Shown here piece by piece: positions 51,152 through 64,000 of a stretch of 64,000 nucleotides of DNA (position 1 is the first letter of the stretch; every line of letters begins with the position of its first letter). Both the position numbers and the translations under genes were made by a program. This stretch comes from Streptomyces luomodiensis. GTDB lineage: Bacteria; Actinomycetota; Actinomycetes; Streptomycetales; Streptomycetaceae. The stretch spans positions 6,510,001 through 6,574,000 of the forward strand of contig NZ_CP117522.1 of the NCBI RefSeq assembly GCF_031679605.1. The letters are read 5' to 3'. The notes under the pieces are model-generated. The model did not search any database and had not been told where the DNA came from. It worked only from the letters and a program-made list of their open reading frames with translations.

Positions 51152-51700
51152 GCCCAGGCCGACGAGCCGGGCGCACGCCATGTTGCCAAGCCCGCTCAGG
51201 CGTCTCAGCGTCTCACCAACTCAAACAGCGGGCCGTCGTTCTCTGGGCCACGCGGAAAGTTGCTCCAGATCATTACACGGTCACCGCGTGATCCTTGTCA
51301 TGGGGCTGCGTTCGGTGGCGCCCGGCTGCGCATGCGCGAAGACCCCACTCAGCGTCTTAGCTGGGTGTGGTGTCCTTTGGCACCTCGGGTGAAGTGTCCC
51401 CGGCGGAGGACCCGGTACATGGGGGAGTGTGGAGCCGTTGGCCGGGGTCGGTGAGCTTGTGATTCGGACTGTTTTCTGGCTGGCCCGGTAGTTCCATCGG
51501 TGTGGCTGAATGTCCGGCGTCCGCAGACCGTACGGGCCCACCTATTGGGCAGAGTGCCGGGCGTATCACGGGTTTCGGCCAAGATGGCGGAGAACCCCGA
51601 AAATGCACAGGCAGCTCTGCTCCCGCGGTGAATTCTCGTTAGGTTGTCAGCCCGGGGACGTCGGGCGGAAGGTTCTGGCGCAGGGGGAGGCGGAGGATCG
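51152..51700. other. Lower-GC gap at the edge of the defence island
   Basis: About 550 bp with no convincing gene. Between about 51340 and 51640 the GC content is clearly lower than in the flanking genes (roughly 55-60 percent by inspection, against about 70). Small frames exist on both strands, but none has a good start, codon bias or a family match. It may be the remnant of an inserted element or the island boundary; no transposase, attachment site or terminal repeat can be recognised. Confidence 0.5.
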
Positions 51701-54247
51701 GTGGAAGCGCGGGAGACAACGTTCGAGCGGCTGATCCAGGGGGACAACCAGTTTCAAGTTCCGCTCTATCAGCGCACCTACAGCTGGGATGTCAACGACC
51801 ATCAGCGGTTGTGGGACGACCTGGTGGAGCAGGCGACGGCCGGCTCGGATGCATCGCAGGCGTCCAGCGGCCATTTCCTCGGCTCACTGGTGCTGGATCC
51901 CCGGCCGCCTATGCCCGACACCGTGCAACGCTGGGTCGTCATTGACGGTCAACAGCGTTTGACCACGCTGATGCTGCTTGCCTGCGCCCTTCGTGATCAC
52001 GTGCTTGCCTTCGACATGGGCAAAGCGGACCTCATCCATCGTCGGTATCTGGTCAACGAAGAGGACTACGGCGGCCTCGACACCTACCGTCTGCTGCCGA
52101 CACAGGCCGACCGGCCTTCGTACCTCGCGTGTGTGGACAACGATCCTCGGGCGGGTGGGGACGACAGCATTGGCGTCGCCTACCGGTTCTTCCTGGCGGC
52201 GCTCGCTGAGTATGACCCCGCCGGCAAGTGGGATACTGTTCGTCACATCGACCAGGCCTTGCGGCACCGCCTCACGCTGGTGACGATCACCGCCGGGCCA
52301 CAGGACAACGCCTTTCGGATCTTCGAGTCCCTGAACAACACAGGCAAGCCGCTGAGCCAGGCCGACCTGCTGCGCAACTACGTGTTCATGCAGCTTCCGC
52401 GTCTAGGCGAGCATGTGTACGACAAGATTTGGCTTCCCCTGCAGACCGAACTCGGACCGGAGCGACTGACGACCCTGGCGTGGCTGGACCTCGTTCTGCA
52501 GGGACAGTCGCGGGTCCCTATCAGTGAGGTCTACCAGGGGCAAAAGCGGCGAATGGGTCAGATAGTAACGACTTCTGGCGAGGACGGGCTACGGGACGAC
52601 CTGGCTCGACTCCGGCGTCTCGGTCACTTGCTCATGCGGGTCTTCGAGCCCGAGCGTGAGCCCGACCTCGAGTTGCGGGCGGTGCTGCAGCGTCTTGTCC
52701 AATGGGGCGGGGAAGCTCACTACCCGCCGACCCTCTATGTGCTGGACCGAGTGGATCACGGGACGGTCGAGCCCAGGGAGGCCGTCGAGGCGCTCACCTT
52801 TGTGGAAAGCTTCCTGGTTCGGCGCATGATCTGTCGGGAACCGTCGCACAGCGTCCGGCAGATTCTTGCCACGCTGCCTTCGGGTATCGAGCGGGACCGT
52901 TCGCTGCCAGAGGCGGTGCGCCGCTACTTGTCCGGCCTGCGGCGAGGGTGGCCACGGGACGAGGAACTGCGCGAGGCGATCCGTACCCAGCCCTTCTATT
53001 GGCAGGGCAGCAGCCGCCACCGCGGCTACGTGCTCAGGCGGTTCGAGGAGGACTACATGGCTCCTGAGCCGGTCGACTTCTCGCGGGCCTGGGCGACCAT
53101 CGAGCACGTGCTTCCGCAGCGGCCCGGACAGGAATGGCTCGCCATGCTCGCCGAGGACGCCGAGGAGGGGGAGCGGGCGGAGGAGCTGCACGAGACGCTA
53201 GTTCACACTCTGGGCAATCTGACCCTCACCGGTGAGAACACACGCCTGTCCAACCACCCCTACGAGCGCAAGCAACAGATCTTCGAGCAGAGCGCCCTGC
53301 GGATGAACCGGGAGATCGCCGCCACCGCGCGCTGGGGGAGGAAGGAGATCCTCAGCCGCGCCGATCGGCTCGCCGATCGCGCCGTGCGCATGTGGCCCGG
53401 ACCTGTCGCGGGTGACGACGGTCAGTCCGGGGAGCGCTCGGAGTGGCTGAGGCTGAGGAAGGTGCTGGCGGGCCTGCCCTCGGGCAGGTGGACCACCTAC
53501 AAGGACCTCGCCGCGGTGACGGGAGCCGGCTCTCCCCAGACGGTCGGAAGTTATCTGGCCACCCGCACCGATGTTCCCAACCCCCATCGGGTGCTCCGGG
53601 CCGACGGCACCTCTTCACCCGACTTCGCCTGGTTCGACGGCCGTAAGGAGACCCAACGGGAGGCGCTCGAGCGTGAGGGCGTCCGCTTCAACGGCGCGGT
53701 GGCTCACCGCGAGCAGAGGCTGACCACGGAAGAGCTGGCTGATCTGGCCGGACTTGACAGGCCCCGTGAGACGGAAGAGGAGGCCGCGGCGGCATCCGAG
53801 GGCGCTGTCACCGACCGCGCGGAGAACTTCGGCAAGTTGCTCAGAACTCACCACCCCGACCTCGCCGAGGGGCTGCTGACCCTGCTGCGTAAGTGGGAGG
53901 CGGATGGCGGGCGGCTCGCATACGGCGCCGCCGAGGAGACGAGCTGCGCGCCGATGCTGCGCGAAGGAAGCGGCCCGCAGGGGGCGATCTGGCCCGTGAC
54001 CATCTATCCGCGATCCGGAGTGGTCGAAGTCGTTTTCGCCTACCTGGCGAGGCGGGAGCCCTTCACCAGGCCGGCGCTGCTCGCGGAACTCCGCGACCGG
54101 ATCCGGGCGATTCCCGGAGTGACGCTGACCGTCCCCGACGCGGAATTGCCCCGACGACGGCCGAGCTTTCCGCTGGGCGTCCTGCGCGGGGGCGGGCTGG
54201 TCCGGTTCGCCGAGACGCTGGAATGGTTCCGTCAACAGAGCCTGTGA
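51701..54247 (+). CDS. GmrSD-like restriction protein (DUF262-DUF1524) fused to an alkyltransferase-like DNA-binding domain
   Basis: An 848-residue defence-type protein. DUF262 (about 8-250): VPLYQRTYSW and VIDGQQRLTTLMLL (the DGQQR motif near 82), the ParB/GmrS-like NTPase part that feeds restriction. DUF1524 (about 440-560): TIEHVLPQRP and GNLTLTGENTRLSNHPYERK, the His-Asn-Asn-type HNH nuclease (GmrD-like). Unusually, about 575-650 form the winged-helix of O6-alkylguanine transferases (LPSGRWTTYKDLAAVTGAGS, then NPHRVLRADG), in which the catalytic Cys of P-C-H-R is replaced by Pro, as in alkyltransferase-like proteins. A further unassigned domain follows. GTG behind GGAGG. GC is lower than in the core genes. 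It may sense modified or damaged bases and cut; type IV restriction is the likely role. Confidence 0.88.
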   Translation: MEARETTFERLIQGDNQFQVPLYQRTYSWDVNDHQRLWDDLVEQATAGSDASQASSGHFLGSLVLDPRPPMPDTVQRWVVIDGQQRLTTLMLLACALRDHVLAFDMGKADLIHRRYLVNEEDYGGLDTYRLLPTQADRPSYLACVDNDPRAGGDDSIGVAYRFFLAALAEYDPAGKWDTVRHIDQALRHRLTLVTITAGPQDNAFRIFESLNNTGKPLSQADLLRNYVFMQLPRLGEHVYDKIWLPLQTELGPERLTTLAWLDLVLQGQSRVPISEVYQGQKRRMGQIVTTSGEDGLRDDLARLRRLGHLLMRVFEPEREPDLELRAVLQRLVQWGGEAHYPPTLYVLDRVDHGTVEPREAVEALTFVESFLVRRMICREPSHSVRQILATLPSGIERDRSLPEAVRRYLSGLRRGWPRDEELREAIRTQPFYWQGSSRHRGYVLRRFEEDYMAPEPVDFSRAWATIEHVLPQRPGQEWLAMLAEDAEEGERAEELHETLVHTLGNLTLTGENTRLSNHPYERKQQIFEQSALRMNREIAATARWGRKEILSRADRLADRAVRMWPGPVAGDDGQSGERSEWLRLRKVLAGLPSGRWTTYKDLAAVTGAGSPQTVGSYLATRTDVPNPHRVLRADGTSSPDFAWFDGRKETQREALEREGVRFNGAVAHREQRLTTEELADLAGLDRPRETEEEAAAASEGAVTDRAENFGKLLRTHHPDLAEGLLTLLRKWEADGGRLAYGAAEETSCAPMLREGSGPQGAIWPVTIYPRSGVVEVVFAYLARREPFTRPALLAELRDRIRAIPGVTLTVPDAELPRRRPSFPLGVLRGGGLVRFAETLEWFRQQSL

Positions 54248-54325: not shown

Positions 54326-56611
54326 TCAGCCGCTACTCTCTCCTGCGTCTGCCAGCGAGGAGCCCAGGAATGGGCTGGGCTTCCCGTGCCAGAAGAGATC
54401 CACGGTGTCGCGCGCTCGGGTAGCCGCTACGAAGAGCAGGGAACGGGCTCGCTGGATCTCGTGCCGGTATCGCACGGGGTCCGTATCGCGCAACGCGTTG
54501 ACGGCTTCCCTGGGCACGAGACCATCCGTCACACCAGCGATGATCATTCGCTGGTATTCCAGTCCCTTGAACCGGAACATGGTGCCGATGTGCACGCCGT
54601 CGGTGCCGTGCGGACCGTCGGAACGGATCTCCACCGAATGGATGCCCTGCAGCTTGAGCGTGTAGCCCACCTCGGCCGCCATCTGGTTGGTGGGCACGCA
54701 GATCGCGATCTGCTCGTGCGGAGTACTCGGCTCCGCAGCCGCGTCCCACTCCTTGATGAGAGCGGCGATGCCTTCCCGCTCCGAGGCCCAGTCCGGAAAC
54801 GGGTGCCCGGCCGGGCGGCTGCCGCTGAGCACCGACCGGTAGCCGGCCAGGGTCTCTTCGCTGCCGTCGAGGTCGTCGTACGTCGTCTCCCCCAGGACGC
54901 CCAGGGCGGAGCGCAGGATCTGCCGGGTCGTGCGGTAGCTGAGGCTCAGCTTCGAGGACCGGCCACGGATGTTGATGCCCAGACTGCCGAGCGTCACCTG
55001 GTTCTTGTAGATGCGCTGGTGGGTGTCGCCGACCAGGAACAGATCGTCCGCGGCCCGCGGGGTCATCGCGCGCAGCATCTTCCAGTGGGCGGGTCGCAGG
55101 TCCTGGGCCTCGTCCACGACGATGTGCCGGTACCGGTAGCGCAGCCATCCTCCCGAGCCGTCCTGTAGGTGGATGTTGTCGAGGCCGCCCGCGTCCTCCC
55201 GCTGCCGGGCGATGCTGAGGATGCGTTGTTCGCGGCCCATCTCCAGTCGCGCGGCGCGCTCGGCCACCTGGTCCCAGGTCTGCCGCCCGAGACGGTCCAG
55301 GCGCTGGGTGAAACGCTCACAGAGCTGCCAGATCTCGGCGCGCTCGGCGCGGCCGATGTTCCGCCCGCGGCCGGCGCGCCGGGCTCGGAAGTATTCGGTG
55401 CGGGTGCCGACGGCCTGTCCGAGGATGACCTGAGTCCACTCGTCGTGGAGGAACTCCGGGTCCCAGGTGTTCTCGCCGAGCTCGTCGAGCAGCGCGCGCC
55501 ATTCCCGTACGGCCTGGCTGTCGTCGATGGTCTGCTTGCCGTTGCCGGGTTCGGCCTCCCGGACGATGCGGAGCGCCAGCTGGTCGACGTGGCTCACCTC
55601 GACCCGGGCCAGCAGTTCCTCCCCGCCCAGCTCCAGCAGCCGGGAGCGCAGGTCGGCGGCGAGGTTCTTGTTGTAGGTCGTCAGCAGGACGGGCTTGTCG
55701 CGGCCGGGGGAGAGCTGCCGCACGAGATGCCGCACCCGGTGCAGCGCGACGATGGTCTTGCCGGTGCCGGGGCCGCCGCCCACCCGGGCGGGGCCGTTGT
55801 AGCGCCGCTCGACCAGCTTGGCCTGAGTGGGGTGCAGGAAGACCTTCCAGCGGCCGAAGTCGCCGCTCTCCAAGGCTTCCCGAAGAGCCTCGTCCGTCGT
55901 GGTGACGACCGTGGCCGGGCGCTGTACGGCTGCTCCGAAGTCCTCCGGGTCGACCGGCTCGGTGGCGGCCACCGGCTTCGTGACCTGGTCGAGTACGTCC
56001 TCGAACGACGCCCCGTCGAACAGCGACAGCAGCACTTCGCCGGTGAGCTGCGGCGCGTACTCGACCAGGCCGAGCAACTGGTCCTCGGTGGTGAGCGTGC
56101 GGATGACCGGGAGCAGCGGTTCGGCGACGCCCAGCTGCAGCAGCTGTTCATCGGTCCAGTCGGCGAACAGCGGCCGCGCTGGTGCCGGTGTCGGCTCCAG
56201 GGACGCGGGCGGCGGGGGTGTGGCGGGCGCGGGCTTTGAGGAGGGCGGGGCGGGCAGCCGGCGCAGAATGCTGTCCTCCACCACCTCCAGGTCGACGTAC
56301 TCGATACCGCCGGTGACCTGGTTGACGCCGTACGACATGCGGTCGTAGACGTCCTTGCGGTGCTTGACGGAGACGATCAGCCAGTCGTCCTCGGCGAGCC
56401 GCAGCAGCAGTGCGCGGTACTCGTCGTTGACCCGCGCCGACCACAGCCTGCTGTCGCCCTTGAGCTGCTGGAGTTTGAGCCCGGCGGTATGGGGGTTGGT
56501 CCTGAACTTGTGCTGGAAGTCGAAGAACGCACCCTTGACCGTGCGGGGGAGCTTGCGGATCTCCTTGTCGGCCTTGTCGAGCAGGCGCAGTGTGACGCCC
56601 GAGGTGTTCAT
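54326..56611 (-). CDS. UvrD/Rep-like helicase with N-terminal RelE-like domain
   Basis: A 761-residue fusion. Residues 1-95 resemble RelE/ParE toxins: LRLLDKADKEIRKLPRTVKG, QQLKGDSRLWSARVNDEYRA, then LLRLAEDDWLIVSVKHRKDV, as in the R-V-x-[DE]-x-Y-R-x2-[FYL] and final H-[KR]-[KRD]-x-[VI]-Y pattern. A Pro-rich linker (about 115-150) follows. From about 270 it is a superfamily 1 helicase: GGGPGTGKTIVALH (near 280), VVDEAQDLRPAHW (near 499), LVGDTHQRIY and VAATRARDTV near the end. The start codon overlaps the stop of the giant helicase gene upstream (ATGA at 56611-56608), so the two are made together. A nucleic-acid translocase with a ribonuclease- or DNA-binding-like module suggests a defence effector; not proven. 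Confidence 0.85.
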   Translation of the reverse strand: MNTSGVTLRLLDKADKEIRKLPRTVKGAFFDFQHKFRTNPHTAGLKLQQLKGDSRLWSARVNDEYRALLLRLAEDDWLIVSVKHRKDVYDRMSYGVNQVTGGIEYVDLEVVEDSILRRLPAPPSSKPAPATPPPPASLEPTPAPARPLFADWTDEQLLQLGVAEPLLPVIRTLTTEDQLLGLVEYAPQLTGEVLLSLFDGASFEDVLDQVTKPVAATEPVDPEDFGAAVQRPATVVTTTDEALREALESGDFGRWKVFLHPTQAKLVERRYNGPARVGGGPGTGKTIVALHRVRHLVRQLSPGRDKPVLLTTYNKNLAADLRSRLLELGGEELLARVEVSHVDQLALRIVREAEPGNGKQTIDDSQAVREWRALLDELGENTWDPEFLHDEWTQVILGQAVGTRTEYFRARRAGRGRNIGRAERAEIWQLCERFTQRLDRLGRQTWDQVAERAARLEMGREQRILSIARQREDAGGLDNIHLQDGSGGWLRYRYRHIVVDEAQDLRPAHWKMLRAMTPRAADDLFLVGDTHQRIYKNQVTLGSLGINIRGRSSKLSLSYRTTRQILRSALGVLGETTYDDLDGSEETLAGYRSVLSGSRPAGHPFPDWASEREGIAALIKEWDAAAEPSTPHEQIAICVPTNQMAAEVGYTLKLQGIHSVEIRSDGPHGTDGVHIGTMFRFKGLEYQRMIIAGVTDGLVPREAVNALRDTDPVRYRHEIQRARSLLFVAATRARDTVDLFWHGKPSPFLGSSLADAGESSG

Positions 56612-59600
56612 CGCTTCGACTCCCCGTCGCTGGTGACCGTGCTGTTCTGCTGTTGACCGGTGAGGCGGGCGATCAGCCGGGCCCGGTCCCATGCGGCGGC
56701 GGTGCGGACCTCCCAGCCCGCGGCCGCGAATGCCTTGTCCCGGTCCTCCGCCTCCTGGTCCGGCTCGTCGTCGTGCGGGCGGGGGGCCAGGACCACTCCC
56801 ACGCGCGCGTCGGACCAGGCCAGTTCGGCCTGCCATCCGTGCTCGTCCAGTTCGTAGCCGTCCTGCGGGGCGGGCACCCCGGCGTCGGCCAGCGCGTGGG
56901 CGAGGCCGGCGAGCCCCGGCTCCTCCGGGTCGAGGTACTCGATGACCCGGTCCCAGCCCGGGTCCCGCTCCGGGCCCGAGCCCGTGGCCGCCCGGCCGGG
57001 GTCGGCCTGGGGCTGCGCCGGGACTTCCTCGTCGACGGAGCGGGCGGGCACGGGCGGCGCCGCGATGACGGCGGCGGGTTCTCCCGCCTGCGCGGGCACC
57101 GCGACACATGTCGAGGGCAGCCAGCCGACGCCGCCCGTCACGGTGAGCACCTCGGCGGCGAAGCCGTCGAGCATGCTGGTCGTCAACTGGGCGCTGTCAC
57201 CGCCGCCGTGCTCCAGGAACTGCAGCACATTGCTCCAGTACAGCCAGGCCCGCCAGCGCCGCTTGTGCGCCTGCCCGTCGGCCAGAGCCGCGTCCCCGTC
57301 GTCCAGGACGGTGAGCCCCGTCCACACCGGCGGAGTGCGCCTGCCGTCAGCGGCCAGCACCAGACGGCAGCCCGACGCGTCCAGGCCGGACAACAGCCGC
57401 ACCGGCCCGGCGGTCCCGGAGGGGGCGCCGCCGCGCAGCGCCTCCCGGAGGCCCTCGCCGACCCTCTCGCCGGCGAGGGCGGCGGCACGGATCCCGTCGG
57501 TCCCGCTCATGCCCGCGGCCACCGCCTCCGCCCGCCGCTGCCAGCGCGCCGGATCGGGGGCACGCAGATAGGCCAGGAGCAGCCAGGCCGGATTGACCCA
57601 CACCGTCTCGGCCAGCTCACCCGGCAGGCCCCGGCCCACACGCTCGTAGTAGTCACGGGCACGCTTCCGGCCGTTGGTGCCGTACGGCTCCCACACCGGA
57701 TCGCTCGGCCCCGTCGGCGCGTACCCGGTGTCCTTGATCTGCTGACGCCACTCCTTGACGTCGTAGAAGGTCAACTGGAACACCCGCAGCCCCTCAGCCC
57801 TGAGCCGGGTGCGTTTCATGGCGTCGTCGGCGAGCCGGTTGTGCTCGCGGGTGGCGTGGTAGGCGTATCCGTCGAGGTACAGGGCCACGCGTGGGCCGGG
57901 GGCGTCGAGCCGCTCCAGCAGTAAATCGGGCCGGGTGCCGTCCAGTGCCCGCTGCTGGGAGACGCGCCAGCTCACGGTCGTGCCGTCCGCCGCCGTCAGC
58001 CGCAGATCGAGGGCGGAGGTGCCGGCCGACGTGGTGTACCTGTCCGCGGTGGCCCGGGACTCGGCCAGCTTCGCCCAGTCCTGGAGCGCCTCGACGAACA
58101 GGATTTCCAGGTCGCTCTCGGCCTGTCGCTGCAGCGGGATGTGCCGCGTTGTCGCGACCGGCGAGGTCCGCCAGCCGTCACCGTCGGCGCCGAGCAGCTC
58201 GTCGAGCATCTGCCGGACCTCGTTGCGGCTCACCTTGTCGTAGTCGGCGGCCGGGACGCGCCGCAGCAGGCACTGGTGGCAGCCGTCGAGACCCTTCTCA
58301 CGGCACGGGCAGCCCTCGATGACGTCCCGCGCCTTGAGGAGCACCTCCCGGAAGCCCTCGGCGGATGCCAGCCGGTGCAGGTAGCCCGTCCCGCCGGGCA
58401 GCCGGTCGTAGACGACGAGGAAGCGCCTCGGCCATTCGGTGTCCGCGTCGCCCGCGTGGTCGGGCATCGTCGCCTCGGCGATGTCGATGTGGTCCGGGTC
58501 GCCGCCGTAGCGGGCCGCGATGCCCGCGAACAGCACGGCGGTGAACGAGGCGAGCCGCTCCTTGGCCCGGGCGACCGACGCGGGCAGCAGGATGCGCACC
58601 GCCTCCGTGGTCAGCTCATGGGCGAGCAGCAGCGGCACGTCCTCCCCCCTGCCCTGCCCGTCCGCACCGGCCGTGGACCCTCTGACCCGGCGGCGCGGGC
58701 ACCACAGCAGGTGGTGCGTCGCGGCCGGGGTGCTCGCCGCCCCCGACTCGGTCAGCGCGTGCTGCGGCACGTCCACCACGGGACGTCCGTCGGCCGTCGC
58801 CCCGCCGCAGCTGGTGCAGACGAAGAACGGGTTTAGCCGCACGTCCCGTCCCGCCACCGGCACCGTGCTGCTGCCGTCCTCGCGGTCCAGTCCCAGGTTG
58901 AACGTCCGGATCTTCGCCTGACGGGTGAAGTCCACTCCGAAGACCGCGGTGTCGTGCCGCCAGGAGCCGGGGGCGAGGCGGCCCGGGTCGATGTCGACGG
59001 TGGTGAGGACCGCGTAGTACTTGTGCTCCCGCTCGTCATGGTCGTCCCGCACCCGCGCGTCGTCCCGCTTGTCGCGGGAGAGCACCCGCCTGGGCTGGAG
59101 TACGTACTGCACACAGCCCGCGTCGGCGATCTCCCGCCCGCCGCAGCGCGGGCACGGGGCGGTGTCGTGCTCGGCGTCCTCGGTGCGTACATAGCCGCAG
59201 GCCGGGCAGAGTCGCCACACCGACCAGGCCCGGCGCTCGGGGCTCCCGATGTCGAGGGCCCGCACGACGTGCCGGTAGCCGTTGACGTAGAAGCTGTTGC
59301 CGGGGGCCAGTTCGGTGAGCGCCAGTTTGCGGGACCGCTCGTAGTCCCGCGTCTCACTGCGGTAGATCTTGCGGGCCGGTCCTTCCTCGGTGCCCGCCTC
59401 CCGCGGGCCGTCGTCCTCGCCCGGGGTCTCCGACCAGTACAGCGTCGCTTCCAGCTGCGTGGTGGTGTCGGTCAGGCTGTAGTTGGGCAGCAGGCCGAGC
59501 TCCACCAGGGTGGCGTGGGCGCTCGACTGGCTCAGCTCCCGCAGCAGGTCCCCCGCGCCGCGGCGCTCGGCCAGCAGCTCGCGCCGCTCCCGGTCCTGCG

Positions 59601-62600
59601 TGTCGTCCGACCTGGCCAGATGCCCGGCGGCCTCGTCGATCGCGATGATCCTGCGCCGCAGCTCCTCGCGCCGCCCCGTCCAGTCCTCCTCGGCCTCCTG
59701 GAGGGCGCGCACGATGCCGCCGGTCGCGTACGCCCTCAGCTCCTCGGCCGCGTACGCCGACACGGCCGCGCCGTCGGAGCTGTCGGGGTCCCGCCCGTCG
59801 CTGCCGTCGGGGAACAGGGCCAGGAACTCCTCGACGAGTTTCGCGCCGTGGGTCTGCGCGGCGTCAGCGAGGTCCTGGCACCATCCACCGGCCCCGAACA
59901 GGGCTGACGACAGCCGGGGGAGCGGCGTCAGCACCTCGCCGTCGGAGGTCCGCAGCTCGCCACGGGCCGCGAGGTCCAGCAGCCGGGCCGTGTACTGGCG
60001 GCGCAGGATCTCCACCGCGGACAGATAGCAGCCCGGCGGCAGGATCGTGCCGGCGATCATCTCCGTCGGCTCGTCCAGGTAGTACAGATCGCGTGCCTTG
60101 CGGCCACCGAAGGCGACCACCAGCGCGTTGCCCGTGCGCCGGCCGGCCCGCCCGGCGCGCTGTACGTAGTTGGCAGGCCCGGCCGGAAGGGAACCGAGCA
60201 GGACAGCCGACAACTCGCCGATGTCGATGCCGAGTTCCAGCGTCGGCGTGCACGACAGCACGTTGGGGTCGGTGTAGTGCGTTCCCGCCTTGAAGGAGCG
60301 CTCGACCCGCTCCCGCTCCGGGCGGCTCAGCATGCCCGTGTGCTCGGCGGTCACGACGCGGAACGTGCCGCCCGTCAGATACAGACGGCGGTAGTAGTCG
60401 CGGGTGTAATCCCGCTCCTGTACGGCGCCGCCGGCCCGGGAGAACCCCGGCTGGGGCGCGGTCAGCCGCCCCTTGCAGCGGTACCGGGGGCAGGGGTGCC
60501 CGTACCAGCGCGTGCGCCGCTGGGGCGCGACGACCTGCTGCCAGCCGCAGTCCTCGCAACTGACGAAGGCCTTGTTGACGACCGCGTCGTCGAGCAGCCG
60601 CACCTCGATGTGCCCTGGCTGCAGCCCGTACACCCGGGTCTGCCGGTCGTGGGCGGTCCGCACGGCCAGGACCCGCTCCTCGGCGAGGGCGGGCAGCAGC
60701 CTGCGCAGATACTCCGCGGCCCCGGCGGCGTCCAGCGCCAGACACCTGCGGGTCCAGTCCTGGTACCAGCCCAGGCGTCCCGTGATCGCGTCGAACTCGG
60801 TCCGGTCCTTCTGCCCGTCCAGCAGGAAGCGCGGCGGGGCGATCCCTTCGGGGAAGGCCGGCATGCCGTCCGGCCTGCGCCCCCAGATGAGGTAACGGTG
60901 GCTGCCCGCCTCCTTGATCCAGGTGTCCAGCCAGCGGTGCCGCACCGCGCCACGCGTCCGCAGCCGCTCCAGCAGCCCCCGCACGTACGCCAGATAGCGC
61001 TCGGGCGTGGGCAGCCCGCCTCCCACCAGCAACTGCCCGGGCAGGGACAGATGCAGGTCACGGGCGAGGTCCGTGATGCGGTCCGGCTCGGCCACCTTGA
61101 CTTCGGCGGCCGCGGTGCGGGTCAGCTCCAGGGTGCGCCCCATGCGGCTGCGCAGCCCGAACTCCATCACGGTCGCGAACGCCAGCCGCTCCCCGATCAG
61201 CTTCCAGGTCCGCGCGTCGCCGGTGCCGCGACCCGACAGCAGACGGTCGACGCCCGGCTCGTCGTGCAGGTCGGGGGGCACCACGGCGGCCAGCGCCTCC
61301 GGGTCGTCCACCGAGTCCAGGACATGGCCGATCAGGTCGTTCAGCGCGGTCGGCGCCCCCGACTCGTCCAGGTTGTGGGCAAGAAGCGAACGCAGCGAGA
61401 ACTTGTACGAGGCGTTGGCGACGTACCCGGCGCGGTGCGCCGCGTCCTGCGTGGAGTCGTTGAACAGCAGCGTCTTGCGCTCCTCGGGCACGAGCGCGAT
61501 GTCGCCGCCGGTGAAAAGCTGCGTCACGGTCGCCGAGGCCAGGGCCGCCTTCGCCGTGCCGAGGAAGCGGATGCTGTTGTCGGTATGGCAGGCCGGGCAG
61601 CGGTCGTCCCGTGCCGCGCGGTCGGCGGTCTTCTTGTCCAGCAGGGCCAGGGCGAACCAGGCGTCGACGAGCTCGCCGTCGTCCCCGGCGGTGGGCAGCC
61701 GGTAGGTGCCCTGCCCGCCGTCGAGCACGACCACCGACAGCGGGTCGGTCCTGCCGTCCGCCGGGCGCGCACCGGTCAGCGCGTCGAGCGCCTGCTGACA
61801 CTCGCTCTCGGTGGCGGAGATGAAGTAGCGGACGCGCCGCTTGTCCCGCCCCACCGCGGCACGCCAGATGCGGTCCTGCGCCATCACCAACTGCTGGGGG
61901 TCGGCCTCCGGGGACAGCGCCGCCCACCCGGAGCGGCCGCAGTTGCGGCAGTACACGGCGGGCAGGTGCACCTGGGCCGGGCGCGGAGCCGTGTCGGCAC
62001 CGGGCAGCGGCTGCGGTCGTCCCGCCGAGGACGACGGCCGGCTCCCGGACGAGGCGTCCGGGTCCTCGTCGCCGGGCGGCACGGCGCTCAGCGCGGCCCG
62101 CCGCGCGGCGGTCCGGTCGTCCTCGTACCACCGGAACTCCGGCGTGCGCCCCACCCCGCGCAGCACCCGCGTCACGGGCCGTACCCACAGATGCGCCTCG
62201 ATGTGCAGCAGCGGCCGGGGCCGGCGCTCGTCGGACTCCGGGTCGCGGGCCGCCGAGAGCAGCGCCACGAACCGGCCCAGCGCCTGGAGCACCAGCCGTG
62301 GGTTCTCCCGCGCGGTGCGGCCCCAGGAGTAGCCGAACCGGGCCAGCCGGTCCCGTAGCGCCCACTCGTCCAGCGGCTCCCCGTTCAGCAGCGACAGCAC
62401 CCCGTGGGTGAAGTCGTGCCGCTTCAGCAGCCGCCCGATGCGGAAGGCGTCCAGACCGGAGCGGCCCAGCAGCCGCGTGGCGAGAGCGTCCAGGTCCAGC
62501 AGGTCGGGCCGGGCCTCCACGTCCGGCCCACCGGACACCGCCACCACCTCCTGGGGTGAGGGCGGCTCCTCCAGCTCGTAGTCCACGGACCCGGTGAACT

Positions 62601-63528
62601 CGTCGGCGGTCATCCGCTCCTCACCGATGACCGCGTCCGCCGGGAACGGCATCCCGAACACCCGCGCCGCCACGTCGAGGACGCCCCCGGCCTCCTTGCC
62701 CGGCGCCCCCTCGCCGAGCGTGGCCGAGGTCGCCACTGGGCAGATCGACCCCAGCGGCCGGCCGGGCCGGGACGCGCCGGTGGCGGCCGCCAGCCGGCGC
62801 AAGAGCATCGCGACATCGGTGCCCTGCGCCCCGTCGTACGTGTGGAACTCGTCCAGCACCACATAGGTGAGGTCGGCGCCCTCCCACAGGCTCCGGTCCT
62901 CCCCGCGCTGGAGCAGCAGGTCGAGCATCTTGTAGTTGGTGATCAGCACGTCCGGCGGGGAGGCCCGCATCTCCTCCCGGCGCGTCATCACCCGCCGGAA
63001 GTCGGTGTCGGGCCGGTCGCCGATGTAGAGGCCCGCGGTCACCTGGGCCAGCTCCGGGCGCGCCAGGTACTCCCCGATGCGCCCCGCCTGGTCGGTGGCG
63101 AGCGCGTTCATCGGATACAGCAGCACAGCTTTGATCCCGCCCCGCCCCTCGGCCTTCTGCCGCCGGCAGTGGTCCAGGACGGGAATCAGGAACGACTCGG
63201 TCTTGCCGGAGCCGGTGCCGGTCGTCACCAGCGTCGGCCGGGCGGGCCCGCGCAGCGTGGACAGCCGGGCCCACGCCTTCGCCTGGTGCCGCCACGGCAC
63301 GAAGCCGGGGAAGCCGGCCGACCACTCCATGTCCTGCTGCCAGCCGTCCTCGGCGAGGTGGAACGGCGTCCTGATCCGCAGGTAGGGCCCCCGGAAGATC
63401 CCGGTCTCCGGATGCCCGAGGAAGCGCTCGAGGGCGCTGCGGGTGTCCTCGTCGGCGAGGGCGTACGTCGTCGTGAGGTACTGCGTCAGACTGCCGCGCA
63501 GCTGCGCGGCGGCCAGGGTGGGCTTCAC
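56608..63528 (-). CDS. Giant DEXH helicase with DUF1998-type zinc motif and nuclease-like domain (DruE-like)
   Basis: A 2306-residue protein. Helicase core: TGTGSGKTES (Lys109), LDEFHTYDGAQGTDV (DEFH at 226-229), ATSATLGE near 268, then a long insertion with zinc-type cysteine pairs (CRNCGRSGW; CPACHT), and YVQRAGRAGRRTG near 1126. C-terminal to it, CPCREKGLDGCHQCLL (near 1745) is the Cys-rich DUF1998/MZB-like site shared by DruE, DrmB and MrfA. About 1865-1930, RPDLLLERLDAPGPRVALYL followed by DGYAYHATREHNRLADDAMK and EGLRVFQLTFYDV, looks like a Vsr/DUF559 PD-(D/E)XK nuclease. The GTG at 63528 follows AAGGGGGAC. Length and order fit DruE of Druantia defence, but no druH or other Druantia partner is seen. 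First in a coupled pair with the RelE-UvrD gene. Confidence 0.87.
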   Translation of the reverse strand: MKPTLAAAQLRGSLTQYLTTTYALADEDTRSALERFLGHPETGIFRGPYLRIRTPFHLAEDGWQQDMEWSAGFPGFVPWRHQAKAWARLSTLRGPARPTLVTTGTGSGKTESFLIPVLDHCRRQKAEGRGGIKAVLLYPMNALATDQAGRIGEYLARPELAQVTAGLYIGDRPDTDFRRVMTRREEMRASPPDVLITNYKMLDLLLQRGEDRSLWEGADLTYVVLDEFHTYDGAQGTDVAMLLRRLAAATGASRPGRPLGSICPVATSATLGEGAPGKEAGGVLDVAARVFGMPFPADAVIGEERMTADEFTGSVDYELEEPPSPQEVVAVSGGPDVEARPDLLDLDALATRLLGRSGLDAFRIGRLLKRHDFTHGVLSLLNGEPLDEWALRDRLARFGYSWGRTARENPRLVLQALGRFVALLSAARDPESDERRPRPLLHIEAHLWVRPVTRVLRGVGRTPEFRWYEDDRTAARRAALSAVPPGDEDPDASSGSRPSSSAGRPQPLPGADTAPRPAQVHLPAVYCRNCGRSGWAALSPEADPQQLVMAQDRIWRAAVGRDKRRVRYFISATESECQQALDALTGARPADGRTDPLSVVVLDGGQGTYRLPTAGDDGELVDAWFALALLDKKTADRAARDDRCPACHTDNSIRFLGTAKAALASATVTQLFTGGDIALVPEERKTLLFNDSTQDAAHRAGYVANASYKFSLRSLLAHNLDESGAPTALNDLIGHVLDSVDDPEALAAVVPPDLHDEPGVDRLLSGRGTGDARTWKLIGERLAFATVMEFGLRSRMGRTLELTRTAAAEVKVAEPDRITDLARDLHLSLPGQLLVGGGLPTPERYLAYVRGLLERLRTRGAVRHRWLDTWIKEAGSHRYLIWGRRPDGMPAFPEGIAPPRFLLDGQKDRTEFDAITGRLGWYQDWTRRCLALDAAGAAEYLRRLLPALAEERVLAVRTAHDRQTRVYGLQPGHIEVRLLDDAVVNKAFVSCEDCGWQQVVAPQRRTRWYGHPCPRYRCKGRLTAPQPGFSRAGGAVQERDYTRDYYRRLYLTGGTFRVVTAEHTGMLSRPERERVERSFKAGTHYTDPNVLSCTPTLELGIDIGELSAVLLGSLPAGPANYVQRAGRAGRRTGNALVVAFGGRKARDLYYLDEPTEMIAGTILPPGCYLSAVEILRRQYTARLLDLAARGELRTSDGEVLTPLPRLSSALFGAGGWCQDLADAAQTHGAKLVEEFLALFPDGSDGRDPDSSDGAAVSAYAAEELRAYATGGIVRALQEAEEDWTGRREELRRRIIAIDEAAGHLARSDDTQDRERRELLAERRGAGDLLRELSQSSAHATLVELGLLPNYSLTDTTTQLEATLYWSETPGEDDGPREAGTEEGPARKIYRSETRDYERSRKLALTELAPGNSFYVNGYRHVVRALDIGSPERRAWSVWRLCPACGYVRTEDAEHDTAPCPRCGGREIADAGCVQYVLQPRRVLSRDKRDDARVRDDHDEREHKYYAVLTTVDIDPGRLAPGSWRHDTAVFGVDFTRQAKIRTFNLGLDREDGSSTVPVAGRDVRLNPFFVCTSCGGATADGRPVVDVPQHALTESGAASTPAATHHLLWCPRRRVRGSTAGADGQGRGEDVPLLLAHELTTEAVRILLPASVARAKERLASFTAVLFAGIAARYGGDPDHIDIAEATMPDHAGDADTEWPRRFLVVYDRLPGGTGYLHRLASAEGFREVLLKARDVIEGCPCREKGLDGCHQCLLRRVPAADYDKVSRNEVRQMLDELLGADGDGWRTSPVATTRHIPLQRQAESDLEILFVEALQDWAKLAESRATADRYTTSAGTSALDLRLTAADGTTVSWRVSQQRALDGTRPDLLLERLDAPGPRVALYLDGYAYHATREHNRLADDAMKRTRLRAEGLRVFQLTFYDVKEWRQQIKDTGYAPTGPSDPVWEPYGTNGRKRARDYYERVGRGLPGELAETVWVNPAWLLLAYLRAPDPARWQRRAEAVAAGMSGTDGIRAAALAGERVGEGLREALRGGAPSGTAGPVRLLSGLDASGCRLVLAADGRRTPPVWTGLTVLDDGDAALADGQAHKRRWRAWLYWSNVLQFLEHGGGDSAQLTTSMLDGFAAEVLTVTGGVGWLPSTCVAVPAQAGEPAAVIAAPPVPARSVDEEVPAQPQADPGRAATGSGPERDPGWDRVIEYLDPEEPGLAGLAHALADAGVPAPQDGYELDEHGWQAELAWSDARVGVVLAPRPHDDEPDQEAEDRDKAFAAAGWEVRTAAAWDRARLIARLTGQQQNSTVTSDGESKR

Positions 63529-63566
63529 GACGGTCCCCCTTGCGATGCCGGTGCCCAGGTGATCGG

Positions 63567-63576
63567 TACCACGGTA
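63567..63576 (-). promoter_or_regulatory. Small dyad upstream of the giant helicase
   Basis: TACC-AC-GGTA (63567-63576) is a short palindrome about 40 bp before the helicase start, in the 100-bp gap after the DUF4276-like gene. It overlaps a possible -10 element (TATACC on the minus strand). Weak evidence. Confidence 0.25.
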
Positions 63577-63628
63577 TAGGGACCTGCTGACAGCCCTGCC
63601 ACGGTGAGCCAGGCAACGACCCTGATAC

Positions 63629-64000
63629 TTACTTCTTCCAACCTGCCAGTTCGTCGGCGAAGTCCCGGAATGACCGGTTGTTGCCGCTCGGACGGGCGCT
63701 GACATGACCGTGGCGGACGGCCGCTTCCATGATCAATGGCGAATGCGATTCGAGATACAGCGGTTTTCCCAGATGCTTCTTGAGATGCTCTTTCGGGTTC
63801 GGCAGGAGCGCAAGATCCTTGCGGCAGTCTTCGGCGCGCATGGCCCAGCCGGGCTTGACCTTGGGGAAGGCATCGGGGAACTGCATGAGCCACGCTTCCA
63901 TCTCGACCGCGGCCAGCGCCAGAGCGGAGTTACAAGGAAGGCCTCGTCGTAGTTGTGCCGTGACTCTTTCTCGGACTCTGTCGTAGCTTTCGTCAGCCAC
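63629..64000 (-). CDS. DUF4276-like protein, C-terminal part only (cut by window edge)
   Basis: At least 123 residues are visible; the gene runs off the right edge, so its start is unknown. LALAAVEMEAWLMQFPDAF, LPNPKEHLKKHLGKPLY and the ending RSFRDFADELAGW follow the pattern of DUF4276 proteins (EAWLL, NPKE-[LH]-L, late SF-x-x-F). These TOPRIM-like proteins usually follow an AAA-type ATPase gene in defence loci. It ends 100 bp before the giant helicase on the same strand, so it may be in that operon. The assignment rests on three short motifs. Confidence 0.6.
   Translation of the reverse strand: MADESYDRVRERVTAQLRRGLPCNSALALAAVEMEAWLMQFPDAFPKVKPGWAMRAEDCRKDLALLPNPKEHLKKHLGKPLYLESHSPLIMEAAVRHGHVSARPSGNNRSFRDFADELAGWKK

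Follow-up and report, generated by a model that had tools for sequence, protein, structure and literature searches.

Two adjoining genes for a giant helicase and a RelE-UvrD protein are identified here, from gene order and conserved residues, as armC and armD of the ARMADA Type II system. The four-gene core of this system is already known (Bell et al. 2025 preprint, PMC12458937). The best explanation, which we hold to be highly probable, is that the pair, armC and armD, makes up half of an ARMADA Type II locus whose armB-armC interval bears cargo, and that this cargo probably serves as a second-line layer. The interval, with its regulator pair and interchangeable contents, is as far as searched an undescribed variant of a known system: the layout was not found described in the ARMADA and cargo literature searched, and the supplements of PMC12458937, or Payne et al. 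2024, may report embedding.

The window, the whole stretch of 64,000 nucleotides that was analysed (G000:C1:6510001-6574000 of a 10.04-Mb one-contig genome), stops within the locus: the end of armB lies 9.8 kb to the right of the armC start, with armA beyond. Genes to the right of the window are given in the coordinate frame of L005 (G000:C1:6573001-6592000). The core genes lie on a single strand in the order armA-armB-armC-armD, with armB and armC non-contiguous:

51644..54247, + strand: GmrSD-ATL, type IV restriction-like, converging on armD
54326..56611, − strand: armD, RelE-fold domain plus GajB-like UvrD SF1 helicase, 761 aa
56608..63528, − strand: armC, YprA-family (DruE-like) SF2 helicase with MZB/DUF1998 domain, 2306 aa from the GTG at 63528
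63629..64000 and past the window end (L005:629-1270), − strand: HEC-01B, earlier called DUF4276-like, 213 aa
L005:1267-2478, − strand: HEC-01A ATPase
L005:2781-3839, + strand: Beta_protein gene
L005:3809-7798, − strand: caspase-SF1 helicase
L005:7805-8281, − strand: EACC1
L005:8378-8902, − strand: HATPase
L005:9041-9952, + strand: XRE-DUF5753 regulator, divergent from HATPase
L005:10295-15511, − strand: armB methyltransferase
L005:15484-18528, − strand: armA SNF2 helicase

The overlap that first drew attention to the pair is real: the armC and armD open reading frames (56608-63705 and 54326-56611) share the 4 nt ATGA, the mark of a co-translated pair. The armC frame is open to 63705, and the 2365-aa numbering used below counts from there. 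ArmC matches the DEAD, Helicase_C, and MZB domains, and a Vsr-like stretch near its carboxyl terminus was seen by eye in the sequence; the published ARMADA II ArmC carries a C-terminal Vsr-type nuclease and a BrxA-like inserted domain (PMC12458937). ArmD, like its ARMADA II counterpart, is a GajB-like UvrD helicase with an N-terminal RelE domain (approximately residues 4-92; profile match to Rv2866, E 0.0045). This fold suggests that ArmD may have an RNA-directed activity. A second ArmD-like stretch elsewhere in the genome (G000:C1:7713678-7715648), 38-41% identical, in two pieces and with one internal TGA, is possibly a decayed copy.

Extending the analysis to the right, proposed as a search for an ATPase or further partners, found the HEC-01A ATPase gene with armB and armA beyond it. 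ArmA is a BrxHII/RapA-like SNF2 helicase (PADLOC DrmD, E 1e-82; BrxH, E 4.5e-49). ArmB is a PglX-like DNA methyltransferase that matches Pfam Eco57I; its top PADLOC match is a type IIG enzyme model.

Each of the eight residues that were mutated in the published work on E. coli ARMADA II is conserved, by alignment, in the four proteins here. Those published for E. coli NCTC 12900 (PMC12458937) are matched as follows: ArmA K136 and D236 by K156 and D256; ArmB G605 and N971 by G660 and N1107 (of NPPW); ArmC K110 and D234 by K168 and D285 (2365-aa numbering); and ArmD K266 and D454 by K285 of Walker A and D500 of Walker B. An E. coli plasmid operon has the same eight residues, with numbering identical to NCTC 12900. 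Identity to this operon is 33% for ArmA, 38% and 32% for two pieces of ArmB, 29% for ArmC, and 32% for ArmD. There is a counter-point: all four proteins share just 29-38% identity with the E. coli operon, and phage protection requiring all four arm genes is published for E. coli only (PMC12458937). ARMADA function in this host is something we infer. Moreover, no ARMADA-named model in PADLOC or NCBIfam matched the locus proteins, and the naming is therefore without independent tool support.

The pair recurs widely, as the original prediction had asked of it. ArmD relatives are encoded in 215 stretches, and the best 80 of these 215, all actinobacterial by title, were examined. ArmC adjoins ArmD in 80/80 (contig ends cut four), and 72 of these share precisely the 4-nt overlap. 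Within the genus, the ArmD N-terminus was found in 26 of 199 genomes, a sample that includes the window's own. The helicase order, which the original prediction could not place in a named system, is published for ARMADA Type II: a YprA (DruE-like) SF2 helicase followed by the RelE-UvrD protein (PMC12458937). What had been proposed as a multi-helicase defence operon stands, as armC-armD. Plasmid records, 15 from E. coli and 2 from Klebsiella, also contain relatives of ArmC and ArmD; one of these plasmids (L157, NZ_LT985234.1), typed conjugative, carries a compact four-gene operon. A Tsukamurella plasmid (L155, NZ_LR134452.1) has two tandem sets of DEAD/DUF1998 helicase plus UvrD around a single methylase gene, and there the ArmC relative is divided between two annotated genes.

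The armB and armC genes adjoin in the E. coli plasmid, in Aulosira, and in a Streptomyces plasmid, and one small gene separates them in Haematobacter. Both genes lie on one contig and strand, and are comparable, in 66 of the 80 loci; in the other 14, armB is on a different contig, lies at the end of one, or could not be placed in the same orientation. Among these 66 relatives, 62 have a gap of more than 2 kb, ranging from 2.4 to 35.6 kb, and in four (L072, L074, L077, and L080) the gap is about 1 kb or less.

The interval contents were surveyed by tblastn with reference proteins, because gene calls based on GC3 include false open reading frames and missed the window locus's XRE gene, HEC-01A, and HEC-01B. 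For six intervals longer than 20 kb, 20 kb was taken, and the 3.3 kb ahead of armC in the other locus completed it; the L078 interval was searched in two pieces, of which its listed length represents one. NsnABC-type modules were found in 24/66 relatives' intervals, HEC-01 in 20/66, and the caspase-helicase in 16/66. The control, approximately 10 kb downstream of armD in the 64 of these relatives with at least 3 kb available there, gave 0/64 for each; Fisher p-values for such comparisons are inflated, because the families were chosen for being common in intervals. Counting the window locus (n=67), the combined states are caspase-helicase plus HEC-01 (12), caspase-helicase alone (5, the count for L013 being caspase-only although HEC-01 parts are present), HEC-01 alone (5), NsnABC-type (20), HEC-01 plus NsnABC-type (4), GmrSD-ATL (2), other (15), and compact (4). 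On a quick ArmD tree of 71 rows, made without bootstrap and with the four compact outgroup rows on long branches, these eight states need 19 changes, against a least possible 7 and a shuffled mean of 44.8. Cargo is thus inherited, yet also exchanged.

The cargo itself is diverse. In the window locus, an EACC1 gene is followed by an EACC1-type caspase fusion (PF19953, E 7.8e-6; NF047832, 163.6 bits against a cut-off of 140). The middle part of the caspase-helicase is present in 14 of the 199 genomes, five others at ≥62% identity and eight at 31-45%; two of the 14 also have armD, in each case no more than about 13 kb away on the same strand of the same contig. Representatives of NsnA, NsnB, and NsnC, one each, matched PADLOC models at E 3.6e-117, 1.8e-113, and 2e-104. 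We take this module to be the system called Menshen; the literature search found no relevant paper naming the three-gene module. PADLOC at E 1e-15, run on ten more large cargo proteins, gave one DISARM DrmA (L048 interval, E 1.5e-205), one TPR model, and eight without a match. Pfam at E 1e-8, applied to ten proteins (nine shared with the PADLOC set), gave STAND-WD40, TerD, TPR, RHS, two CHAT, and abhydrolase matches, and three proteins, including the DrmA protein, without a match. In the L048 interval (L119), the DrmA-like protein and two more large open reading frames stand beside an NsnABC-type module. A TPR-CHAT protein (L089:4732-7542) lies in the L009 interval, which has HEC-01 and lacks its relatives' caspase-helicase; perhaps one protease-like effector was swapped for another.

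Such variety raises the alternative that the interval is merely a tolerated insertion site, its cargo arriving by recombination and having no functional tie to ARMADA. None of the scored modules is present in 15 of the 67 loci, and the RHS protein, in the L069 interval, indicates that not all cargo looks defensive. We nevertheless judge this account rather unlikely, for the interval has a conserved head. The XRE-DUF5753 gene is present in 59/66 relatives' intervals (60/67 with the window locus), and both XRE and HATPase in 47/66 (48/67). In 48 of the 49 loci with both matched, the same pair heads the interval in the same orientation: XRE first on the − strand, then HATPase on the + strand towards armC. 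The XRE family is a common one, with 35 matches in the window's genome; the downstream control gave XRE in 4/64 and XRE plus HATPase in 0/64. Known defence families, moreover, recur in the interval and are absent from that control.

The gene first described as DUF4276-like, together with the ATPase gene preceding it, is identified by its protein models as HEC-01, a named candidate defence module and not part of the core. Both PADLOC models match over nearly the full length (HEC-01A, E 6.6e-172; HEC-01B, E 2.6e-80), and the two genes lie side by side with a 4-nt overlap. The HEC modules reportedly come from the Payne et al. 2024 preprint. Across 15 relatives, HEC-01B keeps an invariant E and a DxD, as the TOPRIM motif does; for a TOPRIM fold, Foldseek gave no significant match, with OLD rows only tied. 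More distant HEC-01 pairs, 41-45% identical, occupy other positions in the L036 and L021/L022/L027/L045 intervals, which suggests repeated arrival. A second HEC-01B-like protein, 36% identical, is encoded about 3.4 kb beyond armA (G000:C1:6594962-6595576; L153:5962-6576), adjoining another AAA_21 ATPase gene (L153:4706-5929).

Could HEC-01, and perhaps the caspase pair, be a working ARMADA subunit in this clade, with the ATPase as sensor, HEC-01B as the cutting part, and ArmC-ArmD dependent on both? HEC-01A and HEC-01B do precede armC on the same strand, and HEC-01B ends about 100 nt away (the distance, measured in 17 relatives, is 79-144 nt in 16 and 826 nt in L036). By eye, an intergenic element before the HEC-01 site is kept where HEC-01A comes next, and the same element directly precedes armC in L017, L019, and L024 (in L032 and L058 it cannot be made out clearly). 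These three close relatives, however, keep armC-armD without HEC-01. The L018 locus differs from L017 by 2,012 extra bases that hold HEC-01A and HEC-01B directly before armC, with flanks of 7.57 kb at 91% identity and the armC start at 95%; L019 has the same empty site. Furthermore, HEC-01 occurs mostly without ARMADA: HEC-01B is present in 12 of the 199 genomes of the genus, and in the 3 of those 12 that have armD, it lies upstream of that gene, no more than about 12 kb away on the same strand of the same contig. In other clades, NsnABC-type modules are found in its stead. The subunit account is accordingly improbable. From the 199-genome distribution, HEC-01 and the caspase-helicase are both free-living, yet gather in the armB-armC slot.

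The original prediction, an undescribed system of DUF4276-like protein, DruE-like helicase, and RelE-UvrD, is rejected as very improbable. Its three genes are indeed adjacent and co-directional in the window, but the first is embedded cargo rather than a core partner; gene order and the eight residues, four of which lie in these proteins, assign the two helicases to ARMADA II; and in 46 of 67 loci with the helicase pair, the interval has no complete HEC-01. The prediction had set a match to an already named system as its own refutation, and such a match was found. The GmrSD-ATL gene, noted as converging from the left, is present on the + strand, and is an accessory neighbour, not core: a full-length relative adjoins armD in 3 related loci and falls within the interval in 2, no commoner there (2/66) than downstream of armD (3/64). 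Further right, a JetC2-type MukB-like protein (PADLOC, 1364.7 bits) and a DUF3323/DUF2399 protein, together at L153:9062-15453, form a Wadjet-like system, which marks the region as a defence island.

Druantia comprises DruE with DruH, with DruM/F/G, or with DruA-D. A Druantia (type III-like) variant can practically be discounted: DruE models are indeed the top PADLOC matches of ArmC (E 1.2e-84), but no other Druantia protein is among the matches listed for seven neighbouring proteins, armA, armB, and armD are ARMADA partners, and ARMADA YprA proteins are already stated to resemble Druantia's most (PMC12458937).

The cargo-bearing ARMADA II reading suggests a mechanism, whose core is likely, given the published E. 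coli work and the domains. ArmB would mark host DNA. ArmA (SNF2-like) and ArmC (YprA helicase, Vsr-like nuclease) would engage and attack unmarked incoming DNA; the attack, on unmarked or replicating phage DNA, would involve three motors and a Vsr-type nuclease. ArmD (SF1 helicase, RelE-fold domain), co-translated with ArmC, would be required. In this lineage, the locus is divided between armA-armB and a downstream unit, the XRE-DUF5753/HATPase pair and the independent modules lying in the 9.8 kb between armB and armC, and we infer that this pair controls the downstream unit. The nested modules look like self-acting effectors: protease plus helicase in one, ATPase and possibly a TOPRIM-like protein in the other.

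On the favoured reading, ARMADA II is a chassis for independent modules, probably second-line effectors, and the cargo would form a second-line, probably cell-suicidal layer. It is read as second line because BREX loci nest auxiliary or backup effectors, TOPRIM/OLD and others, among their core genes (PMC12839542), and because HEC modules are Hma-embedded candidates (PMC12988326, PMC10855318). A broader proposal is tentative: actinobacterial ARMADA II might be a regulated chassis, in which the XRE-DUF5753/HATPase switch drives a unit of interchangeable modules ahead of armC-armD (HEC-01, EACC1-caspase-helicase, NsnABC, CHAT, even DISARM genes), a suicidal second layer deployed alongside the DNA-targeting first layer or once that layer fails.

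These results move a supposed new system into a named family and reveal an accessory-defence site of that family in actinobacteria. The preferred slot and its conserved regulator pair mark a place to seek effectors, among the armB-armC genes that match no family. Moreover, L017 and L018 offer a natural strain pair in which a single module makes the difference at a site of otherwise about 91-95% identical DNA.

Comparison with known systems places the locus more closely. Druantia and DISARM share the YprA-family helicase, with homologues of the DrmD-like SNF2 protein and the DrmMI-like methylase; here, no Druantia partners were found among the matches listed, so membership is rejected, and a RelE-UvrD protein is present. 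DISARM class 1, with separate DrmA, DrmB (DUF1998), and DrmC nuclease, is likewise rejected: one chain here holds both helicase and MZB/DUF1998, and DrmC is not among the PADLOC matches listed for the scanned locus proteins. In the EACC1-caspase two-gene system, a 5' EACC1 gene is likewise followed by a caspase fused to a variable domain (PMC7159879); here an SF1 helicase takes the place of that variable domain, and both genes lie inside ARMADA. BREX also nests effectors in the core of a modification-based defence locus (PMC12839542), whereas here the host is ARMADA, with one preferred slot and a regulator pair. HEC-01 shares both protein models and the embedding in a helicase-methylase defence locus (PMC12988326, PMC10855318), but its host here is ARMADA II rather than Hma. 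ARMADA Type II itself shares the gene order, the domains, the RelE domain on ArmD, the eight tested residues, and the armC/armD overlap (PMC12458937). It differs in one respect: here armB and armC stand 9.8 kb apart, and the space between them holds cargo and a regulator pair.
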